A stretch of DNA of 38,691 nt, taken from Candidatus Methanoperedens sp. Its GTDB lineage: Archaea > Halobacteriota > Methanosarcinia > Methanosarcinales > Methanoperedenaceae. Made by a program: the position numbers and the translations under genes. Below the pieces are notes generated by a model, which saw only the letters and a list, made by a program, of their open reading frames with translations, was not told the origin of the DNA and searched no databases. The DNA lies in contig JAPMTX010000151.1 in the NCBI GenBank assembly GCA_026552855.1, forward strand, positions 1 to 38,691, given 5' to 3'. Within the stretch, counting starts at the first letter, position 1; each line of letters starts with the position of its first letter. Below, one piece after another: positions 2,578 through 37,314 of this stretch.

Positions 2578-3402
2578 CTAGTAGCAATGCCACATGCAAT
2601 ATGCTAAATCTACCCCAAGACATAACGCACAAGGAGCACATGTGATTTGTGTTTTTACCCAGTAACATGGTTGGCATATTATAGCGCAAGCATCACATAT
2701 CGATGGTGTCCCCGGGGGGCAAATATCTCCTAAAACGGCGCATAGACACTCTTCGATAATGCAATTTACCACGCAATCCCAGTAACTTTCAGCTGTTGTA
2801 GTAAACTCGTTTGGAATGTCTTTAATGACGTTTACTGTTCCGTCAGCATTTTTCGTTTTGGTGATCCTTGCTTCTATAAGTTTGTTGTTTTCGCCGATTA
2901 CTGTAAACCTGAATTCAGTAGAGCCATCTTTTTTACTTACAGTATTGGTATACCGCATAGCCCTTGTTTTTTCAGCATCCCAAATAATCACTATATTGGA
3001 GATTTCTACCGCTGCTTCTCGGTCAATCACTCCGGCCGGCAAGATAACTGATGTTGCCTTTTTGATAGATCCATCTTCCAGTTTCTTCTCTAAAATCATT
3101 GCATTTGCTGTATCAATAGTTGATGCAATGTCATTCTCCATAGAAGCGGTTTTTAACGCCTGGACTTCCGGAAGGTTTAATGCACTTATTATAGCGCTCT
3201 TTTTCTCGATTCCCTTTAACTCTGCTCTCTCTATATTGGATTTGTTCAACCCACATGCAGTGCATGTACTACATTTTCCAGATGAGCCAGATCCTGCGTT
3301 ATTACTAATAGATGGTTCTGCTTGTGCAGTTACAACTGGCATTGCTACTGTTGCCATCAGTACTAGCATAGTGATGGCCAAAACTATTCCTTTTCTTATC
3401 AT
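2578..3402 (-). CDS. Secreted Cys-rich precursor, halocin C8-like archaeocin candidate
   Basis: The 274-residue product starts with a Sec-type signal peptide (cleavage likely after AQA, residue 28) and has no twin-arginine motif. A short Cys cluster (C44, C47, C50) follows, then a charged domain of about 150 residues. The last 68 residues (207-274) contain 14 cysteines and many hydrophobic residues. The layout resembles pro-halocin C8, known to be about 283 residues: an N-terminal immunity part plus a 76-residue, Cys-rich antimicrobial C-terminus. Halocin C8 is Tat-exported with 10 Cys, so this would be a divergent relative. A strong AAAGGAGGT site precedes the ATG, and a TATA box lies at 3463-3468. 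It is the first gene of the minus-strand cluster and is divergent from a regulator. The alternative is a metal-binding secreted protein. Homology is judged by eye. Confidence 0.6.
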   Translation of the reverse strand: MIRKGIVLAITMLVLMATVAMPVVTAQAEPSISNNAGSGSSGKCSTCTACGLNKSNIERAELKGIEKKSAIISALNLPEVQALKTASMENDIASTIDTANAMILEKKLEDGSIKKATSVILPAGVIDREAAVEISNIVIIWDAEKTRAMRYTNTVSKKDGSTEFRFTVIGENNKLIEARITKTKNADGTVNVIKDIPNEFTTTAESYWDCVVNCIIEECLCAVLGDICPPGTPSICDACAIICQPCYWVKTQITCAPCALCLGVDLAYCMWHCY

Positions 3403-3462
3403 ACAATACCTCCTTTATTTTTGTCCTGTTCCCGTTTTTAGAGTAAATTGAAAAGAAAAAAG

Positions 3463-3468: not shown

Positions 3469-3473
3469 CCTGC

Positions 3474-3503
3474 TTTTTTGGACACCTCAAGGTGTCCAAA
3501 AAA
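3474..3503. promoter_or_regulatory. Perfect inverted repeat between divergent promoters (operator candidate)
   Basis: The arms TTTTTTGGACACCT (3474-3487) and its exact complement (3490-3503) flank a 2-nt centre. The repeat fills the space between the minus-strand TATA (3463-3468) and the plus-strand TATA (3510-3519), so a protein bound here would touch both pre-initiation sites. The obvious candidate ligand is the winged-helix protein encoded at 3540. The dyad is seen directly; the operator role is inferred. Confidence 0.65.
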
Positions 3504-3509
3504 GAAAAA

Positions 3510-3539: not shown

Positions 3540-4046
3540 GTGACAAACGGGGATTTATTAGAATCATTATCCGATGGTGAGATACTTAAAGCGGTTACAT
3601 CAAGCACAAAACTGAAAATCCTGAGCAATCTCAATGTAAGACCGATGACAGCGGCAGAACTGGCACATAATTTAGGTATATACAAAAGCGGCATTAATAA
3701 GCATATAAGTATTTTACTAACTACTAATCTAGTCGAACGAATTGAAAGTGATCAACGCAAGTGGGTATATTATAAACTTACTGAAAAAGGAACAGAAATT
3801 ATTTCGAAAATGTATATGCTTTTCCTCATTGCTGGTATAATTGGTGGATTGGCAATTGTTGCAGCATTGGCTAATTTCTACTTTTCAAAATATTCCGAAA
3901 CGCTAGAATCAGGTCTAACTAGGGGTTTCAATCCAGTAAAACCTCTAATTTCTTTTGGAGATGTCACTTTACTATTAATAGTAATTTTTGTAATATTGTT
4001 GTTTATAGCATGGTTATATTTAAAAAAGAAAAAATACACTCACTGA
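3540..4046 (+). CDS. Membrane-anchored winged-helix (ArsR-like) regulator
   Basis: The 168-residue product starts at GTG; the ATG two bases upstream runs straight into TGA. Residues about 15-85 form a winged helix (KLKILSNL, then AELAHNLGIYKSGINKHISIL as the recognition region, then a wing ending KWVYYKLTEKG). Two hydrophobic helices follow, about 93-118 and about 138-160, with a lysine-rich end. The protein should therefore bind DNA while held in the membrane, as a one-component sensor. It is divergent from the Cys-rich precursor operon, with a perfect dyad between them, so control of that operon and of itself is likely. Neither a ligand domain nor metal-binding cysteines are visible. Confidence 0.8.
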   Translation: MTNGDLLESLSDGEILKAVTSSTKLKILSNLNVRPMTAAELAHNLGIYKSGINKHISILLTTNLVERIESDQRKWVYYKLTEKGTEIISKMYMLFLIAGIIGGLAIVAALANFYFSKYSETLESGLTRGFNPVKPLISFGDVTLLLIVIFVILLFIAWLYLKKKKYTH

Positions 4047-6924: not shown

Positions 6925-7680
6925 TTATTTTCCTCTTGTAAATAAATTCATCCACCACTTCATACTGCCGGTAAGCCAATCGCCAGCTTGGTGATTATCG
7001 CCAGCTTGGTGAACATCGTTAACTTGGTGACTCTCGTCAGCCTTGTGATTATCGCCAGCCTTGTGATTATCGTCAGCCTGGTGATTATCGTCAGCTTCGT
7101 GTTCATCATCAACTTCGTGATCATCATCAATTACCGGTGTTGGAGTTGGTGTCGGTGTAATAACTGGTGTCGGAGTTGGAGTTGGAGTTGGTGTCGGTGT
7201 CGGAGTTGCTGTTGGTGTTGGTGTTGGTGTTGGTGTCGGAGTTGGAGTTGGAGTTGGAGTTGGAGTTGGTGTCGGAGTTGCTGTTGGTGTTGGTGTTGGT
7301 GTTGGTGTCGGTGTTGGCGTGGGGGTTGGTGTCGGTGTTGGCGTGGGGGTTGGTGTCGGAGTTGCTGTTGGAGTTGGAGTTGGTGTTGGTGTCGGTGTTG
7401 GCGTGGGTGTTGGCGTAGGCGTTGGCACACCAGGTGGTGGACCTAAGGCTATCAACACTGCCGTTGGATTTGATGTATGGGCTGGATCAGCCGCAAATGC
7501 GTTCCCATAGGGGGTGCCTAAGCTGGGGGGGCTGGGGCTATGGCACGTATTACACGAAGTGCCAGTGGTACCATACACTGATTGCAGGGCTGCGAAATAT
7601 GTTGGATTTGCTGAAGCCCCTTGCAGTCCTACCAGAACTACTGCCGTTAGCAGCAGCCCAAATATTATTTTTTTATTCAT
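6925..7680 (-). CDS. Secreted CxxCH protein with Pro-Thr and His-Asp repeats
   Basis: This 251-residue protein has a signal peptide (about 1-24, ending GASA), then a short domain with one c-type heme motif CNTCH at 43-47 and two nearby His. Residues 86-182 are an almost pure Pro-Thr repeat broken by three Ala steps. Residues 185-232 repeat a six-residue unit (consensus DDNHKA) with a His exactly every sixth residue, at 188 through 230. The end is short and Trp-rich. AAGGAGA lies 7 nt before the ATG. It could be a cell-surface monoheme cytochrome on a stiff stalk with a metal-binding tail. Methanoperedens is known to be rich in c-type cytochromes. No standard cytochrome fold is evident, so the heme claim rests on the motif. 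Repeat length may vary between strains. Confidence 0.75.
6985..7128 (-). repeat. 18-bp tandem repeat encoding a His-Asp hexapeptide
   Basis: About eight imperfect 18-bp units encode D/G-D-N/E-H-Q/K-A hexapeptides. The spacing of His is exactly six residues, while third-codon positions and the flanking residues vary. That pattern suggests selection for the His/Asp spacing rather than a recent duplication. Confidence 0.8.
7135..7425 (-). repeat. Pro-Thr coding minisatellite
   Basis: A 6-bp (Pro-Thr) repeat tract runs for about 290 bp, with longer blocks of about 70-90 bp recurring, each containing one Ala codon. It is low complexity on both strands and produces long artefactual open frames. 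It is a likely slippage hotspot. Confidence 0.85.
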
Positions 7681-10280: not shown

Positions 10281-11366
10281 ATGGTAAAGAAGACTGAAGA
10301 AAGGCGAGATACGCATCAAAAAACGGATGTCTACAGGGTATGGTCTGAAAATTACACCGGCTTTTTGAAGGTATTGGGAGATTCCCAATTAAAGCTGTAC
10401 AAGCCGTGGGTAGAAACCATGGGAGAGATGTCTGAGAAGGCAGCTCTTATATCTCAGGAAGCTGTGCCAGAGAAGTACAAGGAATTTTATGACGAGTGGG
10501 CGAAAACCTACCATAACACCTTTGGTAAATTTTACCCGCTCCCGGCGCAGAACTCAGGTAAGGAGGCTCTTGAGAAACTCCTTAGCAGTGCAGAAGAATC
10601 GAACAGGCTCTACAAATCCTGGATCGCTGAACTGGAGGAGAATTCAAAGAAGACGATGGACCTGATAAAAGGTGAACCAGACCCTGTGAAGTATAAAGAA
10701 TGCTATGATATCTGGATGAAATCGTATGAGAAGATGTTAGAAGATCTTCTCGCGCTCCCTGCAATGGAACATACAAAAGAGATATTCGGAGAATACACAG
10801 GCGTTCCGGATATGATTTCAGGAACGCACAACCAGATGTCGAAACTTTGGAAAGACTCGTATACAAAGATGTACAAACCCTGGATAGGGTCCATGCTGAA
10901 GCTGTGCGAGAAAGCTGCTGAGATCTCCAAAGGCAAAACCAGTACCGAGGATTATAAGGAATTCTATAACCTGTGGATGGAGACGTACCAGGAGAATTTC
11001 GGCAGGTTATTAGACGGTAGCCCAGCTAAAACCTCAAAAGAGGCGTTTGAAGATTTCATGCAGAACGCCGGTGTTTACCTGAACATGTACAAGTCATGGA
11101 TTGCAGCGTTTGAAAAAATGTCAGAGAAAAGCAAGGAACTATCAGACCTCACTGCCAGTCCGGAATCTTATAAAGAATTCTGCGACCTCTGGATGAAGAT
11201 GTATGAGAAAGCGTTTGATTCTTTCTTTGACGACATGCCGATGATAGGACCAATGAAGGAGACGATGGAGCCTGTAAAGCTCGCAGCCAAGACGTATTCG
11301 GACGCAGTCGTAAAGATGTCCAGGGCGTGGACCAGATATAATTTCAGTTCTGCAAGCCGGGCTTAA
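10281..11366 (+). CDS. PhaE/phasin-like protein with four internal repeats
   Basis: This 361-residue, strongly helical protein has four copies of a unit of about 75-85 residues. Each has a YK(P/S)W motif (40, 111, 198, 270) followed about 25 residues later by YKE(F/C)xxxW (66, 138, 225, 297). The same YK-D/E-FYxxW signature occurs in the PhaE encoded by the next gene. It lacks the C-terminal coiled coil of PhaE. It probably coats PHA granules or scaffolds synthase as a phasin-like expansion of PhaE. It is first in the operon, and the next ATG comes 2 bp after its stop. I know of no described four-repeat PhaE, but that is from memory. It could also be annotated as class III PHA synthase subunit E. 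Confidence 0.75.
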   Translation: MVKKTEERRDTHQKTDVYRVWSENYTGFLKVLGDSQLKLYKPWVETMGEMSEKAALISQEAVPEKYKEFYDEWAKTYHNTFGKFYPLPAQNSGKEALEKLLSSAEESNRLYKSWIAELEENSKKTMDLIKGEPDPVKYKECYDIWMKSYEKMLEDLLALPAMEHTKEIFGEYTGVPDMISGTHNQMSKLWKDSYTKMYKPWIGSMLKLCEKAAEISKGKTSTEDYKEFYNLWMETYQENFGRLLDGSPAKTSKEAFEDFMQNAGVYLNMYKSWIAAFEKMSEKSKELSDLTASPESYKEFCDLWMKMYEKAFDSFFDDMPMIGPMKETMEPVKLAAKTYSDAVVKMSRAWTRYNFSSASRA

Positions 11367-11368
11367 GT

Positions 11369-11917
11369 ATGGATAACACCAGTTTTGAGCCTGCCCACGA
11401 TTTTTTTAATGCGTGGTTAGACACCTACGAAGCGACCTTAGGCAGGCTGGTAGAAGTGCCTGCCCTAGGACCTTCGCGCGAGAAATACGATAAAATGATG
11501 ACCGGTTTCTCGAAGTTCGTGAACTTCTATTCAACCTGGATGGAGGTCAATTCCGATTTCCAGAAAGTGTTCGCGGATGCCATGAACAGGGTAAATGAGA
11601 GGGTTGCTGCTGAGATGGGTGAGGAGATAAGCCCGGATAAGTATAAGGATTTTTACAATATCTGGATCGAGACCTACAGTTCGGCTTTCAAGGAATTTCT
11701 TAAATCAGGTCATTTCGCTTCTGATATGGGTAAATTCACGTCATATTTCCTGGAATTCCAGAAATACAACAGGGAAATGCTTGAGGAGAACTACCTGAAA
11801 CAGATGAACCTTCCCACGAAGAGCGATATCGATGAAATAAACAAAGAATTGTACTCCCTGAGGAAAAAAACGAAGGAATTAGCCCGCCAGATACAGGAGT
11901 TATCCGGGAAAGGATAA
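11369..11917 (+). CDS. phaE: Class III PHA synthase subunit PhaE
   Basis: The product has 182 residues, shorter than the roughly 350-residue bacterial PhaE. Helical segments carry FYSTWMEV and YKDFYNIWIETY. The end is typical of PhaE: LPTKSDIDEINKELYSLRKK, followed by a heptad coiled coil to the C-terminus, the region that binds and activates PhaC. It starts 2 bp after the repeat protein and lies 31 bp ahead of phaC, as expected for a PhaEC pair. PhaE has no catalytic residues; it raises synthase activity and controls granule growth. Confidence 0.85.
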   Translation: MDNTSFEPAHDFFNAWLDTYEATLGRLVEVPALGPSREKYDKMMTGFSKFVNFYSTWMEVNSDFQKVFADAMNRVNERVAAEMGEEISPDKYKDFYNIWIETYSSAFKEFLKSGHFASDMGKFTSYFLEFQKYNREMLEENYLKQMNLPTKSDIDEINKELYSLRKKTKELARQIQELSGKG

Positions 11918-11948
11918 CCTCCTCCTCAGATTAGGGAAGGGATGCTCT

Positions 11949-13100
11949 ATGAGCGAGACTTGTTTGATACAGAACGATTTTAATAAATTATTAACAGGAA
12001 TGGATCTACTTTTTAAACACCCCGATTTCTCTGTAGGGACAACGCCCTCAGAGATAGTCTACAGGGAGGACAAGATGAAGCTCCTCCACTATATCCCTGC
12101 AGTAGAAAAACCGTATCCGGTCCCGATACTTATTTCGTATGCCCTTGTGAACCGATACTATATTCTTGATCTGCAATCTGATAAGAGCGTGGTAAAGAAG
12201 CTGCTTGACCAGGGTTATGATGTATACGTCATGGACTGGGGATATCCTTCCGGGATGGACAGGTACCTGACGCTTGATGACTATGTGAACGGTTATATGA
12301 ACAACGCCGTAGATAAGATCAGGCAAATATCAGGAATAGATAAGATTACTTTACTGGGAGTATGCCAGGGCGGGACTTTCGCTGTGATGTATGCCTCTTT
12401 GCATCCTGAGAAAGTAAAAAACCTGGTCACCCTGGTAACGCCGGTGGATTTTGATACAGATAGAGGTCTTCTCCACATCTGGGCTAAGAACATGGATGCG
12501 GACAAGGTCGTGGATTATTACGGGATAGTGCCGGGAGACTTCCTGAACTCAGGATTTTTACTCACCGACCCGTTCAAGCTCATTATCGCAAAGTATGTAG
12601 GGCTTTTCGAGCAGCTCGAATCCGAGAACGATGATGAGAGCATATCGCACAACCAGGAGATAATCGAAAATTTCCTCCGGATGGAGAAATGGATTTTCGA
12701 CAGCCCGGACCAGGCTGGTGAGACCTTCAGGCAGTTCATCAAGGACTGCTACCAGAAGAACCTGCTTATCAAGAACGCGATGGTGATCGGAGGAAAGAAG
12801 ATCAATTTGAAGAAAATCACCATGCCTCTGCTCAATGTCATGGCTGAGTTTGACCATCTCGTTCCCACAGATGCAAGTAAACCGCTTAACGAAGCGGTAT
12901 CAAGCACGGATAAAGAGATGCTGGTTTTCCCGACCGGGCATATCGGCATCTTCGTGGGTTCAAAATCCCAGAAAGAGGTCTGTCCAAAGATCGCGGAGTG
13001 GTTAAAACCCAGGTCTTATCCTGACGGGACAGGTGATATTCATGAACGGAAAAATAAACGCAAAAAACCCAATCGCAAATCGAAGGAGAGTGTAACATGA
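11949..13100 (+). CDS. phaC: Class III poly(3-hydroxyalkanoate) synthase subunit PhaC
   Basis: This 383-residue alpha/beta hydrolase polymerises (R)-3-hydroxyacyl-CoA into PHA at the granule surface. The lipase-like box GVCQGG carries the nucleophile Cys139. Asp302 in AEFDHLVP and His331 in TGHIGIF complete the triad, at or very near the positions known from Allochromatium PhaC. The conserved VYVMDWGYP and NLVTLVTPVDF blocks are present. The last 25 residues are Lys/Arg-rich and not part of the fold. The stop overlaps the next start (ATGA), so translation is coupled to the reductase. Its length suits class III. Confidence 0.95.
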   Translation: MSETCLIQNDFNKLLTGMDLLFKHPDFSVGTTPSEIVYREDKMKLLHYIPAVEKPYPVPILISYALVNRYYILDLQSDKSVVKKLLDQGYDVYVMDWGYPSGMDRYLTLDDYVNGYMNNAVDKIRQISGIDKITLLGVCQGGTFAVMYASLHPEKVKNLVTLVTPVDFDTDRGLLHIWAKNMDADKVVDYYGIVPGDFLNSGFLLTDPFKLIIAKYVGLFEQLESENDDESISHNQEIIENFLRMEKWIFDSPDQAGETFRQFIKDCYQKNLLIKNAMVIGGKKINLKKITMPLLNVMAEFDHLVPTDASKPLNEAVSSTDKEMLVFPTGHIGIFVGSKSQKEVCPKIAEWLKPRSYPDGTGDIHERKNKRKKPNRKSKESVT

Positions 13101-13837
13101 GACTTGAGAACAAGGTAGTAATTATAACAGGCGCAGGAAGCGGCATAGGGAAACAGACAGCCCTGATATTCGCCCGTGAGGGAGCTAAGATCGTTGTGGC
13201 GGATATGAACGAAAATGGAGCAAAAGAGACGGTCGAGGAGATCGAAAGTCAAGGGGGAGAGGCGTTCTTTGCCAAGCTGGATGTATGTAACAGGGAACAA
13301 TCAAAGCAGGTCGTTAAAGATACCCTGGAGAGGTACGGCAAGATCGACGTGCTGATAAACAATGCAGGCATCAACCAGGACGCACTCGTACAAAAAATGA
13401 CAGAAGAACAGTGGGATAAGGTCATCACTGTTGACCTTAAAGGTCCTTTTAACTGCATACAGGCTGTGGTCGATGCCATGACAGAGCACGGCACAGGAGA
13501 GATAATTAACGTTTCCTCTATCGTGGGATTATACGGCAATATCGGTCAGACGAATTACGCCGCAGCAAAAGCCGGGCTGATAGGTATGACAAAGACGTTA
13601 GCAAAGGAACTGGGCAAACGGGGGATAAGGGTCAATGCAGTGGCTCCCGGATTCATATCAACCCCGATGACCGCAGGGGTTCCTGAGAAAATCCTTGAGA
13701 TGATGAAGGAAAAGACTCCCCTGAAGAGGCTCGGACAGCCTGATGATGTTGCATATGCGCTCATGTACCTGGCTTCGGATGAAGCGAATTTCGTGAACGG
13801 AGCAGTGCTCAGCGTGGATGGGGGACTGCTCATATAG
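13097..13837 (+). CDS. phaB: SDR 3-oxoacyl/acetoacetyl-CoA reductase, likely NADH-type
   Basis: The product has 246 residues, a full-length FabG/PhaB-type short-chain dehydrogenase. TGAGSGIG (11-18) binds the nucleotide, NNAG is at 88-91, and the catalytic residues are Ser141, Tyr154 and Lys158. Asp36 at the end of the second strand usually selects NAD(H) over NADP(H). It would interconvert acetoacetyl-CoA and 3-hydroxybutyryl-CoA next to PhaC. The operon has a second, different SDR after the thiolase; this one may serve oxidation or NADH-linked synthesis. The ATG overlaps the phaC stop, and phaA follows after 8 bp. Confidence 0.9.
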
Positions 13838-13845
13838 GGGGGACT

Positions 13846-15024
13846 ATGAGGAACGTAGTTATTGCATCAGCCTGCAGAACGGCTATCGGGAAATTCGGAG
13901 GCAGTCTTAAGGACATGAGTCCGGGGCAGCTTGGCTCAGCGGTGCTGAAAGAGGCGCTAAAGCGGGGCGGCGCAGAAGCGAAAGCGGTCGAAGAAGTTAT
14001 CATGGGGAACGTTCTCTCGGCAGGTCACGGTCAGAATATCGCAAGGCAGGCAGCTATTGCCGCAGGTATCCCTGTTGAGGTCTCGTCTTACTGCGTGAAC
14101 AAGGTTTGCGGCTCAGGACTGAAATCTGTCATCCTTGGCGCCCAGGCTATCATGCTCGGCGACGCCGATGTTGTCCTCGCAGGAGGTATTGAATCCATGT
14201 CCCTGGCTCCGTATATTCTGAGGAAAGCCCGCTGGGGAGCGAAGATGGGGAACGATGAGCTTGTGGACGTGATGGTACACGACGGACTGTGGGACATCTT
14301 CAATAATTATCATATGGGCATCACAGCCGAGAACGTAGCGCAGAAGTTCGGCATTACCCGTGATGAGCAGGATGAGTTCTCAGCAAAAAGCCAGAACAAA
14401 GCCGAGGCAGCCATCAAGGCAGGGAAGTTCAAGGAAGAGATAGTCCCTGTATCCATCCCGCAGCCAAAAGGCGAGCCCGTGGTCTTTGATACAGACGAAT
14501 TCCCCAGGTTCGGGACAACGAAAGAGGCGCTCTCCAAACTCAAACCCGCCTTTAAAAAAGACGGGACAGTGACCGCTGGCAATGCATCAGGCATAAACGA
14601 TGGAGCAGCCTGTGTCCTCCTGATGTCCGAGGAAAAGGCAAAAAGCAAAGGCATAGAACCCCTTGCGACGATCAAAAGCTACGGCATGGCTGGAGTGGCT
14701 CCTGAGGTAATGGGGACAGGACCCATAGCAGCGAGCAAAAAAGCCCTGAAGCGTGCGGGTTTAAGCGTAGACGACCTTGACCTGGTTGAGGCGAACGAGG
14801 CTTTTGCTGCACAGAGCGTCGCGGTCAACAGGGAACTTGGTCTTGATACTGATATCGTTAATGTCAACGGCGGCGCTATAGCCCTGGGACATCCCATAGG
14901 AGCCAGCGGCGCAAGGATACTGGTCACTCTTCTCTATGAATTAAAGAGAAGGAAAGGCACTCATGCCCTCGCGACCCTCTGCATAGGAGGGGGTCAGGGC
15001 GTGGCGCTTGTGGTAAAGAGGTGA
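13846..15024 (+). CDS. phaA: Acetyl-CoA C-acetyltransferase (beta-ketothiolase)
   Basis: The product has 392 residues, the usual length for a biosynthetic thiolase. Cys88 in NKVCGSG is the acyl-carrying nucleophile, His349 in the GHP motif and Cys379 in CIGGGQG are the other catalytic residues, and NEAF is present. It condenses two acetyl-CoA to acetoacetyl-CoA, the first step of PHB synthesis. It looks like the bacterial PhaA/AtoB type rather than the archaeal mevalonate acetoacetyl-CoA thiolase, which fits horizontal acquisition together with phaEC. The next start is one base after its stop. Confidence 0.95.
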
Positions 15025-27456: not shown

Positions 27457-29976
27457 ATGCAAAAAGAAGCAAAAGCACGCATCAAGATCAATAAACTCCT
27501 TGAACAATCGGGCTGGAGATTTTTTGATGATGAAAAAGGAAAAGCCAATATCGTTTTAGAGAATAATGTCAAGATCACCAGGAAAAATCTTGATGAGTTC
27601 GGGAACGATTTTGAAAAAACAAAGAATGGTTTTACGGATTTTCTTCTTCTGGACGAAAAAAGCTTCCCATTTGTTATTGTAGAGGCGAAGTCAGAAGATA
27701 AAAATCCTCTGGATGGAAAAGAACAGGCAAGAAAATACGCACAATCTCAAAATGTGAGGTTCGTAATACTATCAAATGGCAATTTGCATTATTTCTGGGA
27801 CTTGGAGCGTGGAAATCCCAGTGTAATAACCAAATTTCCAACATTAGAGTCGCTTCATCATACAGGTTCGTTTCAGCCCAATCCCTCTACTCTTGTTAAA
27901 GAAATAGTCGGAGAGGATTACATTGCCCGAATCCAGAACCCACTTTTTGACAAAGACCCGCGCTGGAGCACTGACAAAACAAGAGCGGACTATATACATG
28001 AATCCGGGTTGAAATTCTTAAGACCGTATCAGTTAGATGCGGTTCATGCTTTGCAGGAATCCGTGGAGGATGGACACGACAGGTTCCTTTTTGAAATGGC
28101 GACAGGAACCGGAAAAACACTGATTTCAGCCGCAGTTATCAAGCTGTTTTTGAGATCGGGGAATGCAAAGAGGGTGCTTTTTCTTGTTGACCGGTTAGAA
28201 CTTGAAGATCAGGCAAGGAAAAATTTTGTGAAATATTTGAAAAACGACTACAAAGTAGTTATTTATAAAGAAAATAAGGATGACTGGCGAAAAGCTGAAA
28301 TTGTTGTCTCAACCGTTCAAAGCCTCTCTTTTGATAATAAATACCTGAGGCTTTTTTCACCCACGGATTTTGACCTTCTTATATCGGATGAAGCTCACCG
28401 TTCAATAGGATGGAACAGCAGGGCTGTTTTTGAGTATTTTGTTGGCTATAAACTCGGTCTTACTGCCACACCTAAAGATTATCTGAAGCATTTAGACCCT
28501 GAGAAAGTAAGTAAGAAGGACCCGCGCGAATGGGAAAGGAGACAACTGCGGGATACTTATATTACTTTTGGCTGTGAGCGGGGTACTCCGACTTTTCGAT
28601 ACAGTCTTATTGACGCGGTGAGGGATGGATATCTCGTGAATCCTGTAGCGGTAGATGCAAGAACAGAGATCACGACGGAGTTACTTTCTGAAAAAGGCTA
28701 TTCTGTGATGATCGAAAATGATGATGGGAATAAAGTTGAGTATATATATTATCACAAGGATTTTGAAAATAAATTCCTTTCTGGAGAGACAAACAGAATT
28801 TTCTGCAAGACTTTTATTGAAAATGCCCTCCGCGATCCAATAAGCGGTGAGATAGGCAAAACCATTGTTTTTTGCGTGAGCCAGAATCATGCCTCTAAGA
28901 TAACCCAGGTATTGAATGAGCTTGCCGACAGGTTATATCCCGGTAAATATAATTCCGATTTCGCTCTTCAGGTGACCTCAAATGTTCAGGATTCCCAGCA
29001 ATTTACCATCAATTTTACGGACACAAGCAATAACCTATCCGGTCACTCGCGTTTTCTTGATGGTTATAAAACGAGTAAAACAAGGGTGTGCGTGACCGTT
29101 GGAATGATGACGACAGGATATGATTGCCAGGATATTTTGAATATCTGCCTGATGCGTCCCATATTCTCGCCAACGGATTTTATCCAGATAAAAGGAAGAG
29201 GTACAAGAAAGTATGATTTTTCATTGAAGATGAAAAATGGGAACGATAATGAAGTCATTAAGAAAACTAAAGAAAAATTCAAGCTTTTTGATTTCTTTGC
29301 AAATTGCGAGTATTTTGAAGAGAAATATAATTATGATGAAGTTTTAAAATTACCTCCAAGGAGTACATATACAGGGGGTGGTGATGGCACGGAAAGGGCA
29401 AGTGAATATGAGAATCTCAGTTTAGACCCCCTAACAAGCCTTGAGGAATACGCTATCGGCATGGATGGGATGAAAATAGATCGCATGTTCTTTGATAAAT
29501 TTGAGACTGCTATCAAAAACAATCCATTCATAAAGGAAAATATTGAAAAAGAAAATTTTGATGCAGTTGAAGAATATATAAAAAGTAAGGTTTTTGAGAA
29601 GCCAGAGGATTATTTTAATCTTGATAAATTGAGGAAATCATTGAGGATAGACCGCCGCCTGAGTTTAAGGGAGATGATAGAGAAGATATTTGGAAAGATA
29701 TCTGCATTCAAGACGAAAGAGGATTTGCTTGAAGAGGAAGTTGAAAGATTCATCTCTATTCATAAGCCCGAAAGCAGGGAGGTGCCGCTCATCAGGAATT
29801 TTATAAAAGCATATATTATGGACAATGAAGTCAGGGATATTATTGAATCAAAGGAATTCGGGCGTTTTTCCACGAATACTCAAATCTCAATGGAGGATTT
29901 TAAAGAACTGAAGAAATGGCGCGAAATGATACCCGAATATGTGAAAGATTATGTTTCGTTAAATAAGTTCATGTAG
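27457..29976 (+). CDS. hsdR: Type I restriction enzyme subunit R
   Basis: The product has 839 residues. The N-terminal nuclease domain (HSDR_N) has Asp61 and E76-x-K78 (VEAK). A SF2 translocase follows with Walker A ATGTGKT (215-221), DEAHR (311-315), LTATP, and a second RecA domain (TIVFCVSQNHASK, then QIKGRGTRKYD). The C-terminal part resembles the EcoEI R tail that binds the methylase. It cuts unmethylated foreign DNA after ATP-driven translocation, in complex with the HsdM-HsdS fusion downstream. The upstream 139 bp are AT-rich with TATA-like ATTAAATATA (about 27408). AT-rich codons mark the start of the defence island. Confidence 0.94.
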   Translation: MQKEAKARIKINKLLEQSGWRFFDDEKGKANIVLENNVKITRKNLDEFGNDFEKTKNGFTDFLLLDEKSFPFVIVEAKSEDKNPLDGKEQARKYAQSQNVRFVILSNGNLHYFWDLERGNPSVITKFPTLESLHHTGSFQPNPSTLVKEIVGEDYIARIQNPLFDKDPRWSTDKTRADYIHESGLKFLRPYQLDAVHALQESVEDGHDRFLFEMATGTGKTLISAAVIKLFLRSGNAKRVLFLVDRLELEDQARKNFVKYLKNDYKVVIYKENKDDWRKAEIVVSTVQSLSFDNKYLRLFSPTDFDLLISDEAHRSIGWNSRAVFEYFVGYKLGLTATPKDYLKHLDPEKVSKKDPREWERRQLRDTYITFGCERGTPTFRYSLIDAVRDGYLVNPVAVDARTEITTELLSEKGYSVMIENDDGNKVEYIYYHKDFENKFLSGETNRIFCKTFIENALRDPISGEIGKTIVFCVSQNHASKITQVLNELADRLYPGKYNSDFALQVTSNVQDSQQFTINFTDTSNNLSGHSRFLDGYKTSKTRVCVTVGMMTTGYDCQDILNICLMRPIFSPTDFIQIKGRGTRKYDFSLKMKNGNDNEVIKKTKEKFKLFDFFANCEYFEEKYNYDEVLKLPPRSTYTGGGDGTERASEYENLSLDPLTSLEEYAIGMDGMKIDRMFFDKFETAIKNNPFIKENIEKENFDAVEEYIKSKVFEKPEDYFNLDKLRKSLRIDRRLSLREMIEKIFGKISAFKTKEDLLEEEVERFISIHKPESREVPLIRNFIKAYIMDNEVRDIIESKEFGRFSTNTQISMEDFKELKKWREMIPEYVKDYVSLNKFM

Positions 29977-29985
29977 TGGTGATTT

Positions 29986-30507
29986 ATGAAGAACATTCAA
30001 AAAACCCGGGACTGGCTGCATATGGCATTGAAAGAATTTGATGCCGCGCTCTCTGATTTTAAAGAGGAAAGGAACAGTGAGTCCATTCAACATGCGCAGC
30101 AATGCGCTGAGAGAATCGGTAAGTCTATTTTGTCTTTTTTGGGTTTTGCACCTGAAAAAACACATCATCCATCAAATTATATTGTTAAGGAGATCTTGCA
30201 AAATCCAGAAGTGCTCAGATCACTTGAGATTACTGAAGATGAAATAAAAGATCTTGTTGATATAGCGACATTATCTTCACCTTTCGAGCGCCAGGGCACT
30301 ATGCCAAGATATGGCTGGGAGACAAAAGAAAGAATCATTACACCAGATGAGATATACACGAACGAGATTGCTTCCGTAATGATTAAAAATGCATTTCAAT
30401 TGCTTATCAAATCTTGTGAATTTTATCGATTAAGAGATATGGATGAAATACTCGCAACAAAAATACTGGAGATTGATGAATATGTTAAAAAACATAGAAC
30501 TGATTAA
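29986..30507 (+). CDS. HEPN-domain protein (candidate toxin)
   Basis: This 173-residue helical protein has the HEPN opening 'RDWLHMALKEFDAAL...' and the helix 'SIQHAQQCAERIGKSILSFLGF', then THHPSNYIVKEI, as in proteins paired with MNT nucleotidyltransferases. The RNase signature R-x4-6-H is not evident, so catalytic activity is uncertain. GGTGAT lies before the ATG, 9 bp after hsdR. The next gene overlaps by 26 bp and encodes the MNT partner. A type VII-like toxin-antitoxin pair inside a type I R-M operon is the best reading. Confidence 0.75.
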   Translation: MKNIQKTRDWLHMALKEFDAALSDFKEERNSESIQHAQQCAERIGKSILSFLGFAPEKTHHPSNYIVKEILQNPEVLRSLEITEDEIKDLVDIATLSSPFERQGTMPRYGWETKERIITPDEIYTNEIASVMIKNAFQLLIKSCEFYRLRDMDEILATKILEIDEYVKKHRTD

Positions 30508-30958
30508 ACAGAAAGAATATTGCATTCCGATCAAAGAATATTTTGAAATAGTTACTAAGAAGGTCGATGTTTATGCAGCTCTACTCTTTGGTTCAGTGGC
30601 AAGAGGAGATGCTAAACCTTTTCGAAGTTATGAAAGTGATATCGACATAATTGTAGTTATCAATGATATTCCTCTTGATCTTGGTAAGCGGATGCTTTAC
30701 AAAATAGATGTAGAATCCGGAACGCAATCAAGAGTTCAATCTATATGGATGACGCCGCATGAACTGGAAGAACATATCGAGGCAAAATCAGAATACATCC
30801 TTGAGGCATTTGAATCCGGAATCATCCTTTTTGACCGTGAAGGGTATCTTGAGAAAAAAATATCCGATCTGGCTATGGAATTGAAATCGAAAGGTGTTTC
30901 AAGATTAAAGTGGGGCTGGTCATGGAATATCAAAGCAGGGGAAGTTGTGGAATTATGA
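30482..30958 (+). CDS. MNT-type nucleotidyltransferase (candidate antitoxin)
   Basis: The product has 158 residues from the ATG at 30482 (GGAG about 10 bp upstream; longer frames start inside the HEPN gene without a site). The polymerase-beta motif is G37-S38 followed by D53-I-D55, with 14 residues in between, slightly longer than usual. MntA enzymes neutralise HEPN toxins by adding AMP to them, and this pair overlaps, implying stoichiometric translation. It stands between hsdR and hsdM; a repeat element follows its stop. Confidence 0.8.
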   Translation: MLKNIELIKQKEYCIPIKEYFEIVTKKVDVYAALLFGSVARGDAKPFRSYESDIDIIVVINDIPLDLGKRMLYKIDVESGTQSRVQSIWMTPHELEEHIEAKSEYILEAFESGIILFDREGYLEKKISDLAMELKSKGVSRLKWGWSWNIKAGEVVEL

Positions 30959-30967
30959 AAAAAGAAC

Positions 30968-30997
30968 CGCAGATAAACGCAGATGAACGCAGATACT
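30968..30997. repeat. 10-bp tandem repeat (CGCAGATRAA)
   Basis: Three units occur: CGCAGATAAA, CGCAGATGAA and CGCAGATACT. I recall the same motif as a dispersed repeat in many archaeal and bacterial genomes, usually beside other repeats. Here it directly follows the MNT gene and precedes the nested palindrome at 31012-31141. Confidence 0.65.
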
Positions 30998-31011
30998 CGC
31001 TATTTGGTTTT

Positions 31012-31141
31012 AGAGCCTGTCTGAAAAATCAATCAATGGCATATTTCCAAATAAGCCACAGAGGCACAGAGACACGGAGAGTCTTCAAACAAACCTCTGC
31101 GTCTCCGTTTCTCTGTGGCTTTAACTTTTCGGACAGGTTCT
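31012..31141. mobile_element. MITE-like nested palindrome
   Basis: The outer arms 31012-31027 and 31126-31141 match at 14 of 16 bases (AGAGCCTGTCTGAAAA against the complement). An inner imperfect dyad starts AGCCACAGAG at 31054 and ends CTCTGTGGCT at 31120, and it contains GAGGCACAGAGACACGGAG-type repeats. The element has no gene of its own; the frame running through it (30910-31161) is not a protein. It separates the HEPN/MNT pair from hsdM. The region 30959-31203 otherwise holds only repeats and the hsdM ribosome site (GAAGGT). Confidence 0.55.
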
Positions 31142-31203
31142 TAGAGAAACAAAAGTTATGAGTGGTACTATATTTCTGAAAATCGTGAAATGAAGGTCAA
31201 AAA

Positions 31204-33681
31204 ATGTTAGATCAGGATACAAAAAGAAAAATCGATAACGCCCGCGATATCCTCGTGGGAAAAGTTCCAGACCCGAAGTCGCAGGTCGAGCAGATAACTA
31301 TCGCGCTCATCTACAAGTTCATGGACGACATGGATAAAGAATCGCAGGCGCTTGGCGGAAAAGCTGCATTTTTCACAGGGGAGTTCGAAAAATACACATG
31401 GTCGCGAATTTTTGACCCGCGCCTCGGAGGCTTCGAACTCATTGCGCTGTATGGCGAAGCTATTACAAAGATGAACCAGAACCAGAATATCCCGCAGCTT
31501 TTCAGGGATATTTTCAAGAACGCTTTTCTTCCATATCGCGACCCTGAAACTCTTAAAAGTTTTTTGAAAGAGATAAACGAGTTCAAATACGATCACAGCG
31601 AGAAGCTGGGGGACGCTTTTGAATATCTCCTGTCAGTGCTTGGCTCTCAGGGCGATGCAGGACAGTTCAGGACACCGCGCCATATTATTGATTTTATTGT
31701 TTCTGTCATTGACCCGAAGAAGAACGAATCGATCCTTGATCCAGCGTGCGGGACTGCGGGTTTCCTGATATCCTCTTTCAAGCATATCCAAAAGCAGAAT
31801 ACGAAGGAGAGAAAAGGGGACTGCCTGACAATGGATGAGAAAAAGAGGCTGATGAACAGCCTTGTCGGGTATGATATTTCCCCGGATATGGTGAGGCTCT
31901 CGCTTGTGAATATGTATCTTCACGGCTTCCAGACCCCGAAAATTTACGAATACGATACCCTCACGAGCGAGGAGAAATGGAACGAAACCTATGACGTAAT
32001 TCTTGCAAATCCTCCTTTCATGACCCCTAAAGGCGGCATCCGCCCCCATAAGCGTTTTTCAGTGCAGGCAAACAGGAGCGAAGTCCTGTTCGTGGATTAC
32101 ATCATGGAGCATATTTCCACAAACGGCAGGGCTGGCGTGATCGTGCCAGAGGGCATAATCTTCCAGTCTGCGAATGCCTATAAGGCGCTTCGCAAACTGC
32201 TTGTCGATACCCATCTTTTCGCCGTCGTTTCCCTCCCGTCCGGCGTTTTCCAGCCCTACGCAGGCGTGAAAACAAGCATCCTGCTGATGGACAGGACTCT
32301 TGCAAAGCGCGCGCCCGATATCCTTTTCGTGAAGATCGAGAGCGACGGCTTTGACCTTGGCGCGCAGAGGCGCCCGAACGGCAAGAGTGACCTCCCGGCG
32401 GCGCTTTCGGCTCTTTTGAAGTTCAGGAGGAGTTTGCATGAGGGAAAGGAGTGCGAGTTTAGCGAGGAGGAGAAGAGGCTTGCGCATCGGGTGGCGAGGG
32501 TGAGGATTGCTGAGGGCGGGGATTATAATCTGTCGGGGGAGAGGTATAAGGAAACGATTAAATCCAAAAGATCGGAATATGAATTGTTTGAAATCAATGA
32601 TATTTGTGAAGTGGTTCGTGGAAGTTCACCGAGACCAAAAGCTGACCCAAAATATTATGGTGGAACTGTTCCAAGATTAATGATTTCGGATGTAACAAGA
32701 GACGGTATGTATGTTACTCCTTTGACTGATTTTCTTACCACAGAAGGGGCTAAACTAAGCAGACCCATGAAAAAGGGTGAAGTTGTTGTGGCTGTAAGTG
32801 GGAATCCTGGGCTACCTGCGATTTTGAAAGTTGATGCATGTATTCATGACGGTTTTGTTGGGTTTAGAAATCTAAGTCCCAAAATATTACCTGAATTTTT
32901 ATATTTTTTTCTATTTCATCAAAAAGAGAGATCAAATTCTCAATCTGTAGGTGCTATATTTAAGAATTTAACAACAGATCAAATTAAGAAAATCAAAATC
33001 CCACTCCCGCCCCTGGCAGTCCAGCAGGAGATCGTGGCTGAGATTGAGGGCTGCCAGAAGGTCGTTGATGGGGGGCGGCAGGTGGTGGAGAATTATAAGC
33101 CGAAGATAAAGATGGATGAGAGGTGGGAGGTGGTTGAGCTGGGAGCTGTATTCAATAAAATCACTGATTCCATTAATCCTAAAGAAAATAATGGAAATGT
33201 CAAATATATCGGTCTTGAGAATATCAAATCAGGAACGGGTAATCTAAATGGTGATTTTAATAAAGAAATCTCAGATATTAAGAGTACAAAATTAATTTTT
33301 TTAATAAATGATATTCTATATGGCAAATTGCGACCAAATTTAAATAAAGTTTGGCTGGCCACATGTGCGGGAATTTGCTCTACTGATTTTTTATTATTAA
33401 GAGCTAAAAATAATAATGTAATTCCTAAATTCTATTCATTTATTCTGAGAGACAATGATTTTAATGCTCAAGTTTTGAAAGGAATTAAGGGAGCACAGTT
33501 GCCAAGAGTCGGGTTTGAGTATATTTCAAAGATAAAAGTCCCTCTCCCACCGATTTCTATACAGCAAGAGATAGTTTTACGAATTGAGGAGGAGCAAAAA
33601 CTGGTGGAGGCGAATAAAAAATTGATTGAAATATTTGAAGGAAAAATAGAAGCGAAGATTGAAGAGGTTTGGGGTGAATAA
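31204..33681 (+). CDS. hsdM: Type I HsdM-HsdS fusion (methylase plus specificity)
   Basis: The product has 825 residues. Residues 1-455 are an N6-adenine methylase with a helical N-domain, SAM motif DPACGTAGFL (179-188) and NPPF (269-272). Residues about 456-825 are a complete two-half HsdS: first target-recognition domain (about 460-595), central conserved repeat (IPLPPLAVQQEIVAEIEG), second recognition domain (about 640-775), distal repeat (VPLPPISIQQEIVLRIEE) and a helical tail. Fusing M and S fixes their ratio. The recognition domains are sharply more AT-rich than the methylase and central repeat, a sign of domain exchange. It would methylate and recognise a bipartite site and complete the HsdR complex. 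Confidence 0.93.
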   Translation: MLDQDTKRKIDNARDILVGKVPDPKSQVEQITIALIYKFMDDMDKESQALGGKAAFFTGEFEKYTWSRIFDPRLGGFELIALYGEAITKMNQNQNIPQLFRDIFKNAFLPYRDPETLKSFLKEINEFKYDHSEKLGDAFEYLLSVLGSQGDAGQFRTPRHIIDFIVSVIDPKKNESILDPACGTAGFLISSFKHIQKQNTKERKGDCLTMDEKKRLMNSLVGYDISPDMVRLSLVNMYLHGFQTPKIYEYDTLTSEEKWNETYDVILANPPFMTPKGGIRPHKRFSVQANRSEVLFVDYIMEHISTNGRAGVIVPEGIIFQSANAYKALRKLLVDTHLFAVVSLPSGVFQPYAGVKTSILLMDRTLAKRAPDILFVKIESDGFDLGAQRRPNGKSDLPAALSALLKFRRSLHEGKECEFSEEEKRLAHRVARVRIAEGGDYNLSGERYKETIKSKRSEYELFEINDICEVVRGSSPRPKADPKYYGGTVPRLMISDVTRDGMYVTPLTDFLTTEGAKLSRPMKKGEVVVAVSGNPGLPAILKVDACIHDGFVGFRNLSPKILPEFLYFFLFHQKERSNSQSVGAIFKNLTTDQIKKIKIPLPPLAVQQEIVAEIEGCQKVVDGGRQVVENYKPKIKMDERWEVVELGAVFNKITDSINPKENNGNVKYIGLENIKSGTGNLNGDFNKEISDIKSTKLIFLINDILYGKLRPNLNKVWLATCAGICSTDFLLLRAKNNNVIPKFYSFILRDNDFNAQVLKGIKGAQLPRVGFEYISKIKVPLPPISIQQEIVLRIEEEQKLVEANKKLIEIFEGKIEAKIEEVWGE

Positions 33682-33747
33682 AATTATTAATGAAGATGAA
33701 TTAGGTGAGATACTGCTTTATTGTTTTCTTGAAATTTAAGAGAGATT

Positions 33748-36700
33748 ATGGGAGTAATATTTGAACAATTTCATTCAATAAATTATGAAAATGAAGCTGA
33801 TGTTAGTCAAAACTTTGTTATAACTCTTTTGACTAAATATCTGGGTTTTTCATTAGAGGATATTAAACCTGAAAGAGATTTCCCAGCAAGGGATATTTTT
33901 TACGGTAGAAAGAAAATAAACTCAAAGGATTTTCCTAAGAGTCAACGTCCAGATTATGTCATTTGTATTAACGATATTTCAAATCCAAAATTTGTCGTGG
34001 AGAGCAAAGCTCCTAGTGAAGAATTGGAAAAACATTTGCCGCAAATGCAATCTTACTCTTTGGGTGTTGGCGTAAATTTATTAGTTATAACAAATGGGGT
34101 TAGCTTAAGAATTTATGATGTAAACAATTTAATATTTAAAGCAAATAATATTGAGGATTTAGATTTAAACTTTGATATAGTTAAGAAAATACTTTGTAAA
34201 GAAGTTCAAGCCTGTTCTTCCCCTCTAGAAATAATAAAAAGTATTGATATCGACAAAGCTTTAGGTAAATCGTCTATACAACTTATCGAGGAAGAAAAAA
34301 GAAAGCTACAACTAAAAATTTCTGATTTTCAAGAATATCTCAAAAATGTTAAAGAGCAATTTCAAGACTGGCAAATCCCAAGGGAATTCCAAGCTTTTTC
34401 TTTAAAAATAGAACAATATCCACCCGATAGATTGCATAGGTTTAAGATATACAAAATGTCGAAAATTAGTTTAGGGGAGGAAAAAAGTTATACTTTCGCT
34501 GAAATAGAGCAGAAGTTTAATACCCCCATTAAAATTTTTATTGGCCCATCAGGTATTGGCAAAACAACGCTACTTAAATATATTGCATATCTAAAAGCAA
34601 GTGATTGCTTAAATCTCCATAATGTTGAGATTCCAATATATATTCCATTGAGAAATTTCGGCCATAATTTAGGTTTGGAGAATCTAATCATCAAATCACT
34701 GGGAAAAAGAGGCTTTAACACCTCATCACAGGATTTGCAAAAGCTCTTACAAAAGAACACTTTTATTTTTTTGTTAGATGCATTTGATGAGGTTCAAGAG
34801 AAATACTTGGAGGATGCAAAAAGAGAGATCGAAGAATTTACAGGCATAAATACCAATAAAATTATCATTACATCACGGGAAACAAGATTGATAGATTTAC
34901 CCTCATCTTCACGATTTCTTGTAAATCCGCTAGAACAAAATGAGATTGAGAATCTTCTCGAACAATATCTTGGTAATGAACGATTTAAATTTTTGCATGA
35001 AATAAAAAGGAAGGGCTTAGTTGATGAGTCGAAAAATACCTTATTACTTACATTGATGATACTAATCTATAAAGAAGATCAAATACTTCCGATTTCAAGG
35101 ACAAAAATTGTTGGGAAAGTTGTTGAGAAAATAAAAGAGTGGGAGGAAAGTAAGGGCAAAAGACTCACAAATGGATTAAGTTGGGGAATTAAAGAGAAGA
35201 TACTTAGTGAGCTGGCTTTTAAAATTGTCGAGGCTCAAGAAAACCTAACGTTATCTGAAAAACAATTTGATAGCGTGCTGATACCATTACTTGAATGCTT
35301 AGAGGAGAAAAGGGAAATTCCCCAAGGTATAGATAAACATCGGGTTATAGAGGATTTAGCTCTAACTGGAATTGTTGGTTATGATGATGATGCGGTTTCT
35401 TTTTGGCATAGGGCGTTTCTTAATTACTTTGCCTCTAAAACCCTTGCGGATAAATATGTTGAATCTCCAAAAATCCTAGAAGAAATTAAGAATAAAGTTG
35501 CTTGGGAGCCTATTATTGTCGGCTCAGTAGAACATTTATATGATTCAACGAAATTCATAGAAACTCTCAGAGACACAAATCTATTTTTAGCTTCTGCCTG
35601 TCTTGGGGAGGCTAAAAAAATTAGTGAACATACTATTAAGGATATAGTATCGCAACTCTCAATAAAATGTTTCTCTCCTATTAACGAAATAAGATTAAGA
35701 GCAATTTGGTTTCTCAAGCGGATAAATCCAACATATACCATAGACGTATTTTTTGGCTTTTTGGAAAATAATCCATATCCTGATATTCGAAAAATTGCGA
35801 TAGAAGAGGCTGCTAAAGAAAAATCTAGTAGAGCAAGAATGGCTGTCTATAAATTGATAGATTGGGATGAAAGGGGAGGTATTTTTCTTGGAAGTACTCA
35901 AGGGAGCATTGCTAAGGCGCTATCAAATTTTGATGTAGATGATCAATTAAAAATAATTAAAATATGGAGAACAAAACCAGATATTTTCACCAGTGAAGAT
36001 TGCGAAGAAGCTATACGAAATATTATTAGAGAAGGAGGACTGACCGAAAGGGTTAAAGAAGCATTATTAGACTTCTATCTTGAAAAAGAAGAAGGTGACA
36101 TCCATAAACACCATAAAGATCGAGGACTAGCCGACATTTTGATAGAAATTAGTGATGAGAAAATCGTACCTAAACTAATAGAAAGTTTTGAAGTCAAAAA
36201 TTCTGATAGCCTTGATGGGATGAGAACAGAAGATATTCTTGCTAGTTATAAATTAGAAAATGTAATAGAACAGCTTTCATCCAAAGCATTAGATCAAAAA
36301 ATTGGCGATAAAATTAGAGAAGGATGTTCGGGTGCATTAAGTAAATCAAAAGGAATGGTTCCACTATCTATCTTTGAGAAACTTCTTGAAGATAAAAATC
36401 CACGAGTTCGCAGAAATGCCATTAAAAGTCTAGATAGATTCCCTACTTCCGAAGTCAAGGATTTATTACTCATATACGTGAACGATAAGGACGGTAGGGC
36501 GCAGTATGAAGCCATTAAAGTTTTAGGAGATAAAGGCTTGCTCGTAGAATTAGCGGATAAAAACAAATTTCCTAAAAGATTTTACGATATAAGTGTGGAG
36601 GTGCTTTTAGAACAGACAAGAAAATACAAACTTCGAGAAATGTTGCCTATTCTCGATTGGTTGAAAGATAAAGTTCGTAACGATGATAGAAAGAAGATTG

Positions 36701-37314
36701 ATGTTGCCCATGCTTATAGCATAATTGGGGAGAAAGAAAAGGCAAAGAAGATTATCGAAAGCTTCTTCCACGAGAATGAATTAGTGGTAAGCGAATACGG
36801 TCTTGCAGACTTAGCAGAAATATCTCCTGTCTTTGATCCACCATATTCTTTGAGAATTATAAAAGAAGTTTTAAAATCTATAAATAAATTGAGCGATAAA
36901 AGTAGCTTTTGGGTAGATAAATGCATTGAATCTCTTGAAAGAATTGGCAATATAGAAGCACTTGATCTGCTAAAAGAATTAGCCACAGGGTATGCTGCCA
37001 AAAGAGAACTGTTACTCATAGAAAGATCATTAAGAGCAATTAATAGTTTAGCCACAAATAAAGATGAGGAGTGGTATATTAACTTCATAAAAAGAAACTC
37101 TCATCTTGAAAGGTCTGATTTAAGGAGAGCAATAGAAGGATTGGGAATAGTTGGTTCAGAGAAATCAATTCCAGTTATAAAGGAAATAGCCGCTTTGCAT
37201 AAGAAGGAGGAATATATTATAGCTATTTGTTTTTTAAGCATAGAAAATATCTATAGAAATTCAGGTATATTAATAGAAATTACGGAAAAAGAGGTTTTAA
37301 ATGAAAATAACTAA
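33748..37314 (+). CDS. PD-(D/E)xK nuclease - NACHT - HEAT repeat protein (STAND-type defence)
   Basis: The product has 1188 residues. Residues about 1-150 form an HSDR_N-like nuclease (D69, E85-S-K87, QMQSYS, LLVITNG). A linker follows, then a NACHT ATPase: Walker A GPSGIGKT (266-273), Walker B FIFLLDAFDE (D344, D347-E348), and a sensor ITSRE. A helical region ends at about residue 620. The remainder is HEAT-like helical repeats (for example LEDKNPRVRRNAIKSLDRFP). This is the effector-NTPase-sensor layout of STAND/Avs anti-phage proteins, which oligomerise on sensing phage protein and cut DNA. It is one gene behind HsdMS, and very AT-rich. The target is unknown. Confidence 0.85.
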   Translation: MGVIFEQFHSINYENEADVSQNFVITLLTKYLGFSLEDIKPERDFPARDIFYGRKKINSKDFPKSQRPDYVICINDISNPKFVVESKAPSEELEKHLPQMQSYSLGVGVNLLVITNGVSLRIYDVNNLIFKANNIEDLDLNFDIVKKILCKEVQACSSPLEIIKSIDIDKALGKSSIQLIEEEKRKLQLKISDFQEYLKNVKEQFQDWQIPREFQAFSLKIEQYPPDRLHRFKIYKMSKISLGEEKSYTFAEIEQKFNTPIKIFIGPSGIGKTTLLKYIAYLKASDCLNLHNVEIPIYIPLRNFGHNLGLENLIIKSLGKRGFNTSSQDLQKLLQKNTFIFLLDAFDEVQEKYLEDAKREIEEFTGINTNKIIITSRETRLIDLPSSSRFLVNPLEQNEIENLLEQYLGNERFKFLHEIKRKGLVDESKNTLLLTLMILIYKEDQILPISRTKIVGKVVEKIKEWEESKGKRLTNGLSWGIKEKILSELAFKIVEAQENLTLSEKQFDSVLIPLLECLEEKREIPQGIDKHRVIEDLALTGIVGYDDDAVSFWHRAFLNYFASKTLADKYVESPKILEEIKNKVAWEPIIVGSVEHLYDSTKFIETLRDTNLFLASACLGEAKKISEHTIKDIVSQLSIKCFSPINEIRLRAIWFLKRINPTYTIDVFFGFLENNPYPDIRKIAIEEAAKEKSSRARMAVYKLIDWDERGGIFLGSTQGSIAKALSNFDVDDQLKIIKIWRTKPDIFTSEDCEEAIRNIIREGGLTERVKEALLDFYLEKEEGDIHKHHKDRGLADILIEISDEKIVPKLIESFEVKNSDSLDGMRTEDILASYKLENVIEQLSSKALDQKIGDKIREGCSGALSKSKGMVPLSIFEKLLEDKNPRVRRNAIKSLDRFPTSEVKDLLLIYVNDKDGRAQYEAIKVLGDKGLLVELADKNKFPKRFYDISVEVLLEQTRKYKLREMLPILDWLKDKVRNDDRKKIDVAHAYSIIGEKEKAKKIIESFFHENELVVSEYGLADLAEISPVFDPPYSLRIIKEVLKSINKLSDKSSFWVDKCIESLERIGNIEALDLLKELATGYAAKRELLLIERSLRAINSLATNKDEEWYINFIKRNSHLERSDLRRAIEGLGIVGSEKSIPVIKEIAALHKKEEYIIAICFLSIENIYRNSGILIEITEKEVLNENN

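Follow-up and report, generated by a model that had tools for sequence, protein, structure and literature searches.

The precursor gene and its surroundings

The window analyzed here, i.e., the whole stretch of 38,691 nucleotides from Candidatus Methanoperedens sp., carries on the minus strand at 2578–3402 an intact open reading frame for a protein of 274 amino acids (P0001), which starts with ATG and is preceded by a GGAGGT Shine-Dalgarno sequence at 3408–3413, 5 nt upstream. Since full-length relatives with aligned tails exist, the reading frame did not arise by chance. The initial annotation had described a secreted protein of this length with 14 cysteines in its last 68 residues but had not stated the strand, and the description was borne out. 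The protein comprises a Sec-type signal peptide (residues 1–26; 3325–3402), a pro-region of about 180 residues (residues 27–206; 2785–3324) and a cysteine-rich tail (residues 207–274; 2581–2784), all on the minus strand. The signal peptide, recognized by sequence and similar to those in relatives of every tail type, lacks a twin arginine and ends in VTA-QA (AxA type). The tail, defined by the alignment of five tails, is the predicted mature peptide, with a putative exact cleavage point. Cysteine makes up 20.6% of residues 207–274, and the runner-up among 36 non-overlapping open reading frames of the window has 8 cysteines per 68 residues as compared to 14 here. Two features had been overlooked previously, namely three further cysteines shortly after the signal (CSTCTAC) and a co-directional operon downstream of the precursor gene. 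A secreted lipoprotein was considered and rejected, as there is no lipobox cysteine at the cleavage site (VTA-QA-EPS) and the first cysteine is residue 44.

The genome contains mcrA, and the best structure match of its product is 9QQT, the methyl-coenzyme M reductase of ‘Ca. Methanoperedens’ Vercelli strain 1 (PMC12413448). The gltX gene adjoining the cassette is 78–88% identical to gltX of genomes of the same genus, which shows that the contig is no contaminant.

The cysteine-rich tail

Seven tail types were distinguished among the precursors: A (halocin C8), B (P0001 type), C, D, F, G and H. Ten tail cysteines are invariant in all five type B sequences, which have the motif CLCxxLGxxCPPG.P.ICDxC in common. 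The remaining cysteines come in pairs: C214 and C269 are jointly present only in P0001 and its relative L063, and C243 and C258 only in P0001. Moreover, the number of cysteines is even in 29 of 29 tails, all types included. Even numbers and pairwise gain point to disulfide pairs rather than metal sites. The tail is acidic and hydrophobic, with a pI of 4.05 and a GRAVY value of 0.89, similar to the values of 4.14 and 0.89 for the peptide of L131, a haloarchaeal protein in the profile described below, whose C-terminal end we take to be the 76-aa halocin C8.

A search of residues 207–274 against the halocin C8 model TIGR04449, which the initial annotation had proposed as a check, gave no match (model cut-off 24 bits). 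The full-length P0001 was not hit either, nor was anything in the whole genome at an E-value of 10, which places the peptide outside the halocin C8 domains. C8 domains hold 10 cysteines with C8 spacing in about 70–76 aa, and the P0001 tail has 14 cysteines, ten of them conserved, in a different spacing. Profile comparison of the tails (21 hhalign pairs, 15 permutations each) yielded at least three mutually undetectable clans, {B,F}, {A,G} and {C,D,H}. Relatedness of the B tail to the A (C8) tail was undetected (hhalign 4%), which counts against reading P0001 as an archaeocin precursor, as do the AlphaFold models of the full-length protein and the tail, whose pLDDT values of 40 and 57 were too poor for use. 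Membership in the immunity/bacteriocin fusion family TIGR04450 was likewise rejected (5.7 bits vs. a cut-off of 27).

The CxxC pairs in the tail would also suit a cysteine-rich envelope or metal-binding protein with a storage, redox or structural role and a pro-region acting as mere folding helper. The adjacent LolA-like lipoproteins are in line with such a role, as is the thioredoxin-DsbD protein encoded close to the precursors of relatives. However, tail cysteines that are always even and gained pairwise, a patchy distribution and tail turnover inside one genus speak against it, and the tail matched no NCBIfam or Pfam model and no PDB chain, metal proteins included; we thus regard this explanation as quite improbable. 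A metal enzyme with a cysteine-rich end was rejected since no such Pfam, NCBIfam or PDB match exceeded the cut-off. The initial annotation had named a missing halocin match together with metal-enzyme or lipoprotein homologues as evidence against itself; the match is missing for the tail, and the relatives of P0001 belong to neither group.

Homology of the pro-region with halocin C8 precursors

The pro-regions were compared by held-out tests, in which signal peptides were removed, a profile was built from all types minus one and the omitted type was scored. These tests linked the pro-regions of types A, B, C, D, F and H; type G has only the signal in common with the others. None of 1000 shuffles scored as well for five of five P0001-type and eight of nine C8-type members, the exception being the A-type fragment L005, and the same held for every member of types C, D, F and H. 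P0001 on its own was marginal, with 14.2 bits as compared to 12.7 for the best shuffle, and did not exceed shuffles with a profile of C8-type precursors alone, both of which count against the archaeocin reading. Its relatives reached 17–32 bits and P0001 is alignable with them lengthwise; it is through these close relatives that P0001 is connected to the C8 pro-region. Additionally, the Methanosarcinales profile matched haloarchaeal Tat-type C8 precursors with an hhalign probability of 95.1% and a score of 50.4, as compared to 11.2 for the reversed control and a maximum of 12.6 over 100 permutations.

The part aligned to the haloarchaeal pro-regions by hhalign comprises residues 57–130 of P0001. 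ProC8 (283 aa) is cleaved into the immunity protein HalI and the 76-aa HalC8 (PMC11509114), and the matched stretch may correspond to the HalI region. The pro-halocin C8 layout claimed in the initial annotation was thus upheld, and the likeness of the pro-regions is raised to homology by the profile tests and hhalign; in its pro-region P0001 groups with the ProC8 type, marginally when taken alone and via its close relatives. Like ProC8 (PMC11509114), P0001 is predicted to be secreted, of similar size, homologous in its HalI-type pro-region and equipped with a cysteine-rich, hydrophobic and acidic C-terminal peptide. Unlike ProC8, it has a tail of 14 cysteines in another spacing that gives no TIGR04449 match, a predicted Sec instead of a Tat signal, and separate lipoprotein and membrane protein genes downstream; the differences in cysteine number and signal had been noted correctly before. 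By sequence, the Methanosarcinales C8-type members also have Sec-type signals, whereas the haloarchaeal ones have twin-arginine signals. P0001 is best read as a precursor with ProC8 layout and pro-region and a putative new toxin tail outside the halocin C8 domain family.

Relatives and distribution

When 60 related genomes were searched, the single partial match was L002 of the same genus, a precursor of 322 aa whose tail has 18 cysteines. A profile search of 186 genomes of the order detected precursors in about 30. Three of these genomes, all from g26 (a genus that is probably Methanosarcina), encode full-length relatives of P0001, namely L043, L046 and L047. L043 matched P0001 with a BLASTP E-value of 8e-57 and 37% identity, and L063, from a Methanomicrobiales MAG (JAAZOW010000116.1), is 41–42% identical. 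TIGR04449 precursors above the cut-off were found in 9 of the 186 genomes, including one of this genus (G008), so P0001 is not the sole candidate antimicrobial of this methanotroph genus. These Methanosarcinales TIGR04449 precursors (L003–L012) resemble P0001 in the pro-region and, in several loci, in F2 or F1 genes downstream, and differ from it in tail clan. The spread is sporadic, and four genomes of the same genus (G000, G008, G025 and G029) each have a different tail. A tail-only match, L089, was dismissed as antisense noise.

Truncated or frameshifted precursor remnants were observed at G148:C1:1814499-1814633 (L025), G163:C94 (L070) and G174:C34:11900-12052 (L052), adjoining F14 or other cassette genes, which indicates that cassettes decay as well as spread. 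Such decayed fragments, the sporadic distribution and the fact that other genes occupy the place upstream of gltX in genomes of the same genus would fit a selfish cassette, of the addiction or contact-inhibition kind, whose victims are the cells that lose it and not competitors. Nevertheless, the precursor is secreted, viral contigs and plasmids gave no match, and no mobile-element genes were identified beside the window copy, which makes this explanation highly improbable.

Downstream genes and tail-specific gene sets

Four genes follow the precursor gene on the minus strand. The first (1861–2541) encodes a LolA-like lipoprotein of 226 aa (family F2; Pfam PF17131 sub-threshold, BLAST E-value of 5e-30 to the gene in the same place in L046), a candidate immunity or lipid-handling partner. 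It is followed at 1622–1855 by a gene for a 77-aa membrane protein, a candidate immunity protein that shares homology with the N-terminal portion of F5, a protein of 216 aa (profile E-value of 3e-8, above 2000 shuffles). A small membrane protein encoded at 1264–1608 (from the ATG at 1608) and assigned by its position between cassette genes is possibly the C-terminal part of F5; combining the 77- and 126-aa reading frames into one split F5 was rejected because the second half was unsupported. The last gene (215–1252) encodes a 345-aa lipoprotein with LolA-like and DUF4367 regions (F2 long form; Pfam PF14285, PF17131), which is 68% identical to a cassette protein of G008.

The order precursor-F2-F5-F1 is repeated in L043, L046, L047 and L063, and F1, a thioredoxin-DsbD membrane protein, is among the neighbours in most loci. 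In the window cassette, F5 is short or split and F1 is absent, with only a 29% copy elsewhere; both observations count against the archaeocin reading. The downstream genes go with the tail: type C is followed by F11 and F4 (5/5), type D by F15 and F4 (4/4), C8 subtype A2 by F14 and F2 (2/2) and the P0001 type by F2 and F5 (4/4, and L063), counts that are not independent events because the cassettes share descent. Within the single genome G153 (L044), F14 comes after each C8 subtype A2 precursor, and F15 after the D-type one. In our interpretation, the lipoproteins and small membrane proteins are putative cognate immunity modules.

Predicted regulation and maturation

Between the precursor gene and a divergent gene on the plus strand (3540–4046), encoding an ArsR-type winged-helix regulator of 168 aa with two C-terminal transmembrane segments (Pfam HTH_5), lies a perfect 15-bp inverted repeat with a 2-nt centre (3473–3504), the predicted operator. 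The only near copy of this repeat in 3.4 Mb is situated on another contig before a gene for a secreted Peptidase_C39_2 protein (L153; G000:C165:233-1501), and the two promoter regions are alignable over about 118 nt. The common repeat and aligned promoters suggest co-regulation, and the C39-like peptidase is a candidate maturation protease of P0001. Its family is expanded in g26, with up to seven matches per genome, and peptidase and precursor co-occur in 16 genomes as compared to about 4.6 expected (p = 5e-8), a figure confounded by that genus. Subtilase genes are present in some other cassettes.

An operator and divergent regulator beside P0001, together with membrane winged-helix (F3) and secreted beta-sandwich (F6) genes adjoining many precursors, might also be expected if the disulfide-rich peptide served in signaling or kin recognition, with surface proteins and membrane winged-helix regulators as its sensors, and were not a killer. 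Bacteriocins are, however, often similarly regulated, and a toxin/immunity function is favoured by the exchange of unrelated tails, by downstream gene sets specific to the tail and by C8-type precursor ancestry; we consider a signaling role unlikely.

A second element, TGCC-N4-GGCA (mostly TGCCCGAAGGCA), was observed 83–106 nt before the start of about nine precursor genes of several tail types, among them L043:8100-8876, L045:6321-6965, L046:7099-7875, L049:2105-2773, L058:2803-3441, L060:3826-4641, L061:55-1023 and L063:2157-2921. Its overall frequency is 0.05 per kb, and it is likely a common operator of several precursor genes. The promoters of the L043–L058 precursors are nearly identical across tail types, as seen in their 5′ leaders (e.g., L046 at about 7050–7098), which have in common a pairing TTGCCTCT...AGAGGTG that would mask the ribosome-binding site. 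The L051 and L063 leaders show changes on both sides of the pairing (CCTCC/GGAGG), and translational control is possible.

Proposed function and relation to known systems

Taken together, pro-region homology, tail-specific gene sets, paired cysteines and F1 neighbours, as well as the sporadic spread, the operator with the C39 peptidase and the pI and GRAVY values resembling those of the L131 peptide, favour the view that P0001 is probably a secreted disulfide-rich archaeocin precursor consisting of an immunity-type pro-region and a toxin and accompanied by an immunity operon. The initial annotation as a candidate archaeocin precursor thus gained support from the pro-region homology, with antimicrobial activity predicted. 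Following this, we propose that P0001 is exported via the Sec route and that its HalI-like pro-region keeps the tail harmless, probably with a role in self-protection, until an extracellular protease, possibly the C39-like peptidase with the same inverted repeat, frees the 68-residue peptide. Seven disulfides would hold this peptide in a compact, hydrophobic, acidic and helical form, and its target would probably be the membrane of close relatives. Protection of the producer would fall to the downstream lipoprotein and small membrane proteins, and control of the cassette to the divergent ArsR-type regulator, acting via the inverted repeat.

In the haloarchaeal antagonists HmHapP/HlyR4, an extracellular protease likewise presumably activates a precursor that is secreted; P0001 differs in protein family, in its C39-like candidate as opposed to a serine protease, and in its C-terminal tail, since the active part of the former is N-terminal (PMC12893001). 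The Gram-positive TIGR04450 fusions have the two-part concept and a similar length in common with P0001. There is, in our estimation, an even chance that methanogens and anaerobic methanotrophs possess a polymorphic archaeocin system with a C8/HalI-like pro-region combined, after the manner of polymorphic toxins, with at least three unrelated disulfide-rich toxin clans, each having its own membrane immunity module, and with a common promoter design, in which the Methanoperedens peptide would be a new toxin class.

Characterized archaeocins derive from haloarchaea and Sulfolobales, and the halocin C8 family was reportedly expanded by Makarova in 2019 (mBio), so that the P0001 family may be partly predicted already. 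The pro-region recurring on unrelated tails offers a search handle for candidate archaeocins in uncultured methanotrophs as well as cultivable methanogens, and the latter would permit direct tests of killing, immunity and disulfide mapping. If true, the proposed function would imply chemical warfare in communities controlling methane release.

Elsewhere in the window, inspection at a glance suggested a polyhydroxyalkanoate synthesis cluster at 10281–15024 (PhaE/PhaC-like proteins, reductase and thiolase) and a restriction-modification-like region at 27457–37314 with an embedded HEPN/nucleotidyltransferase-like pair at 29986–30958.
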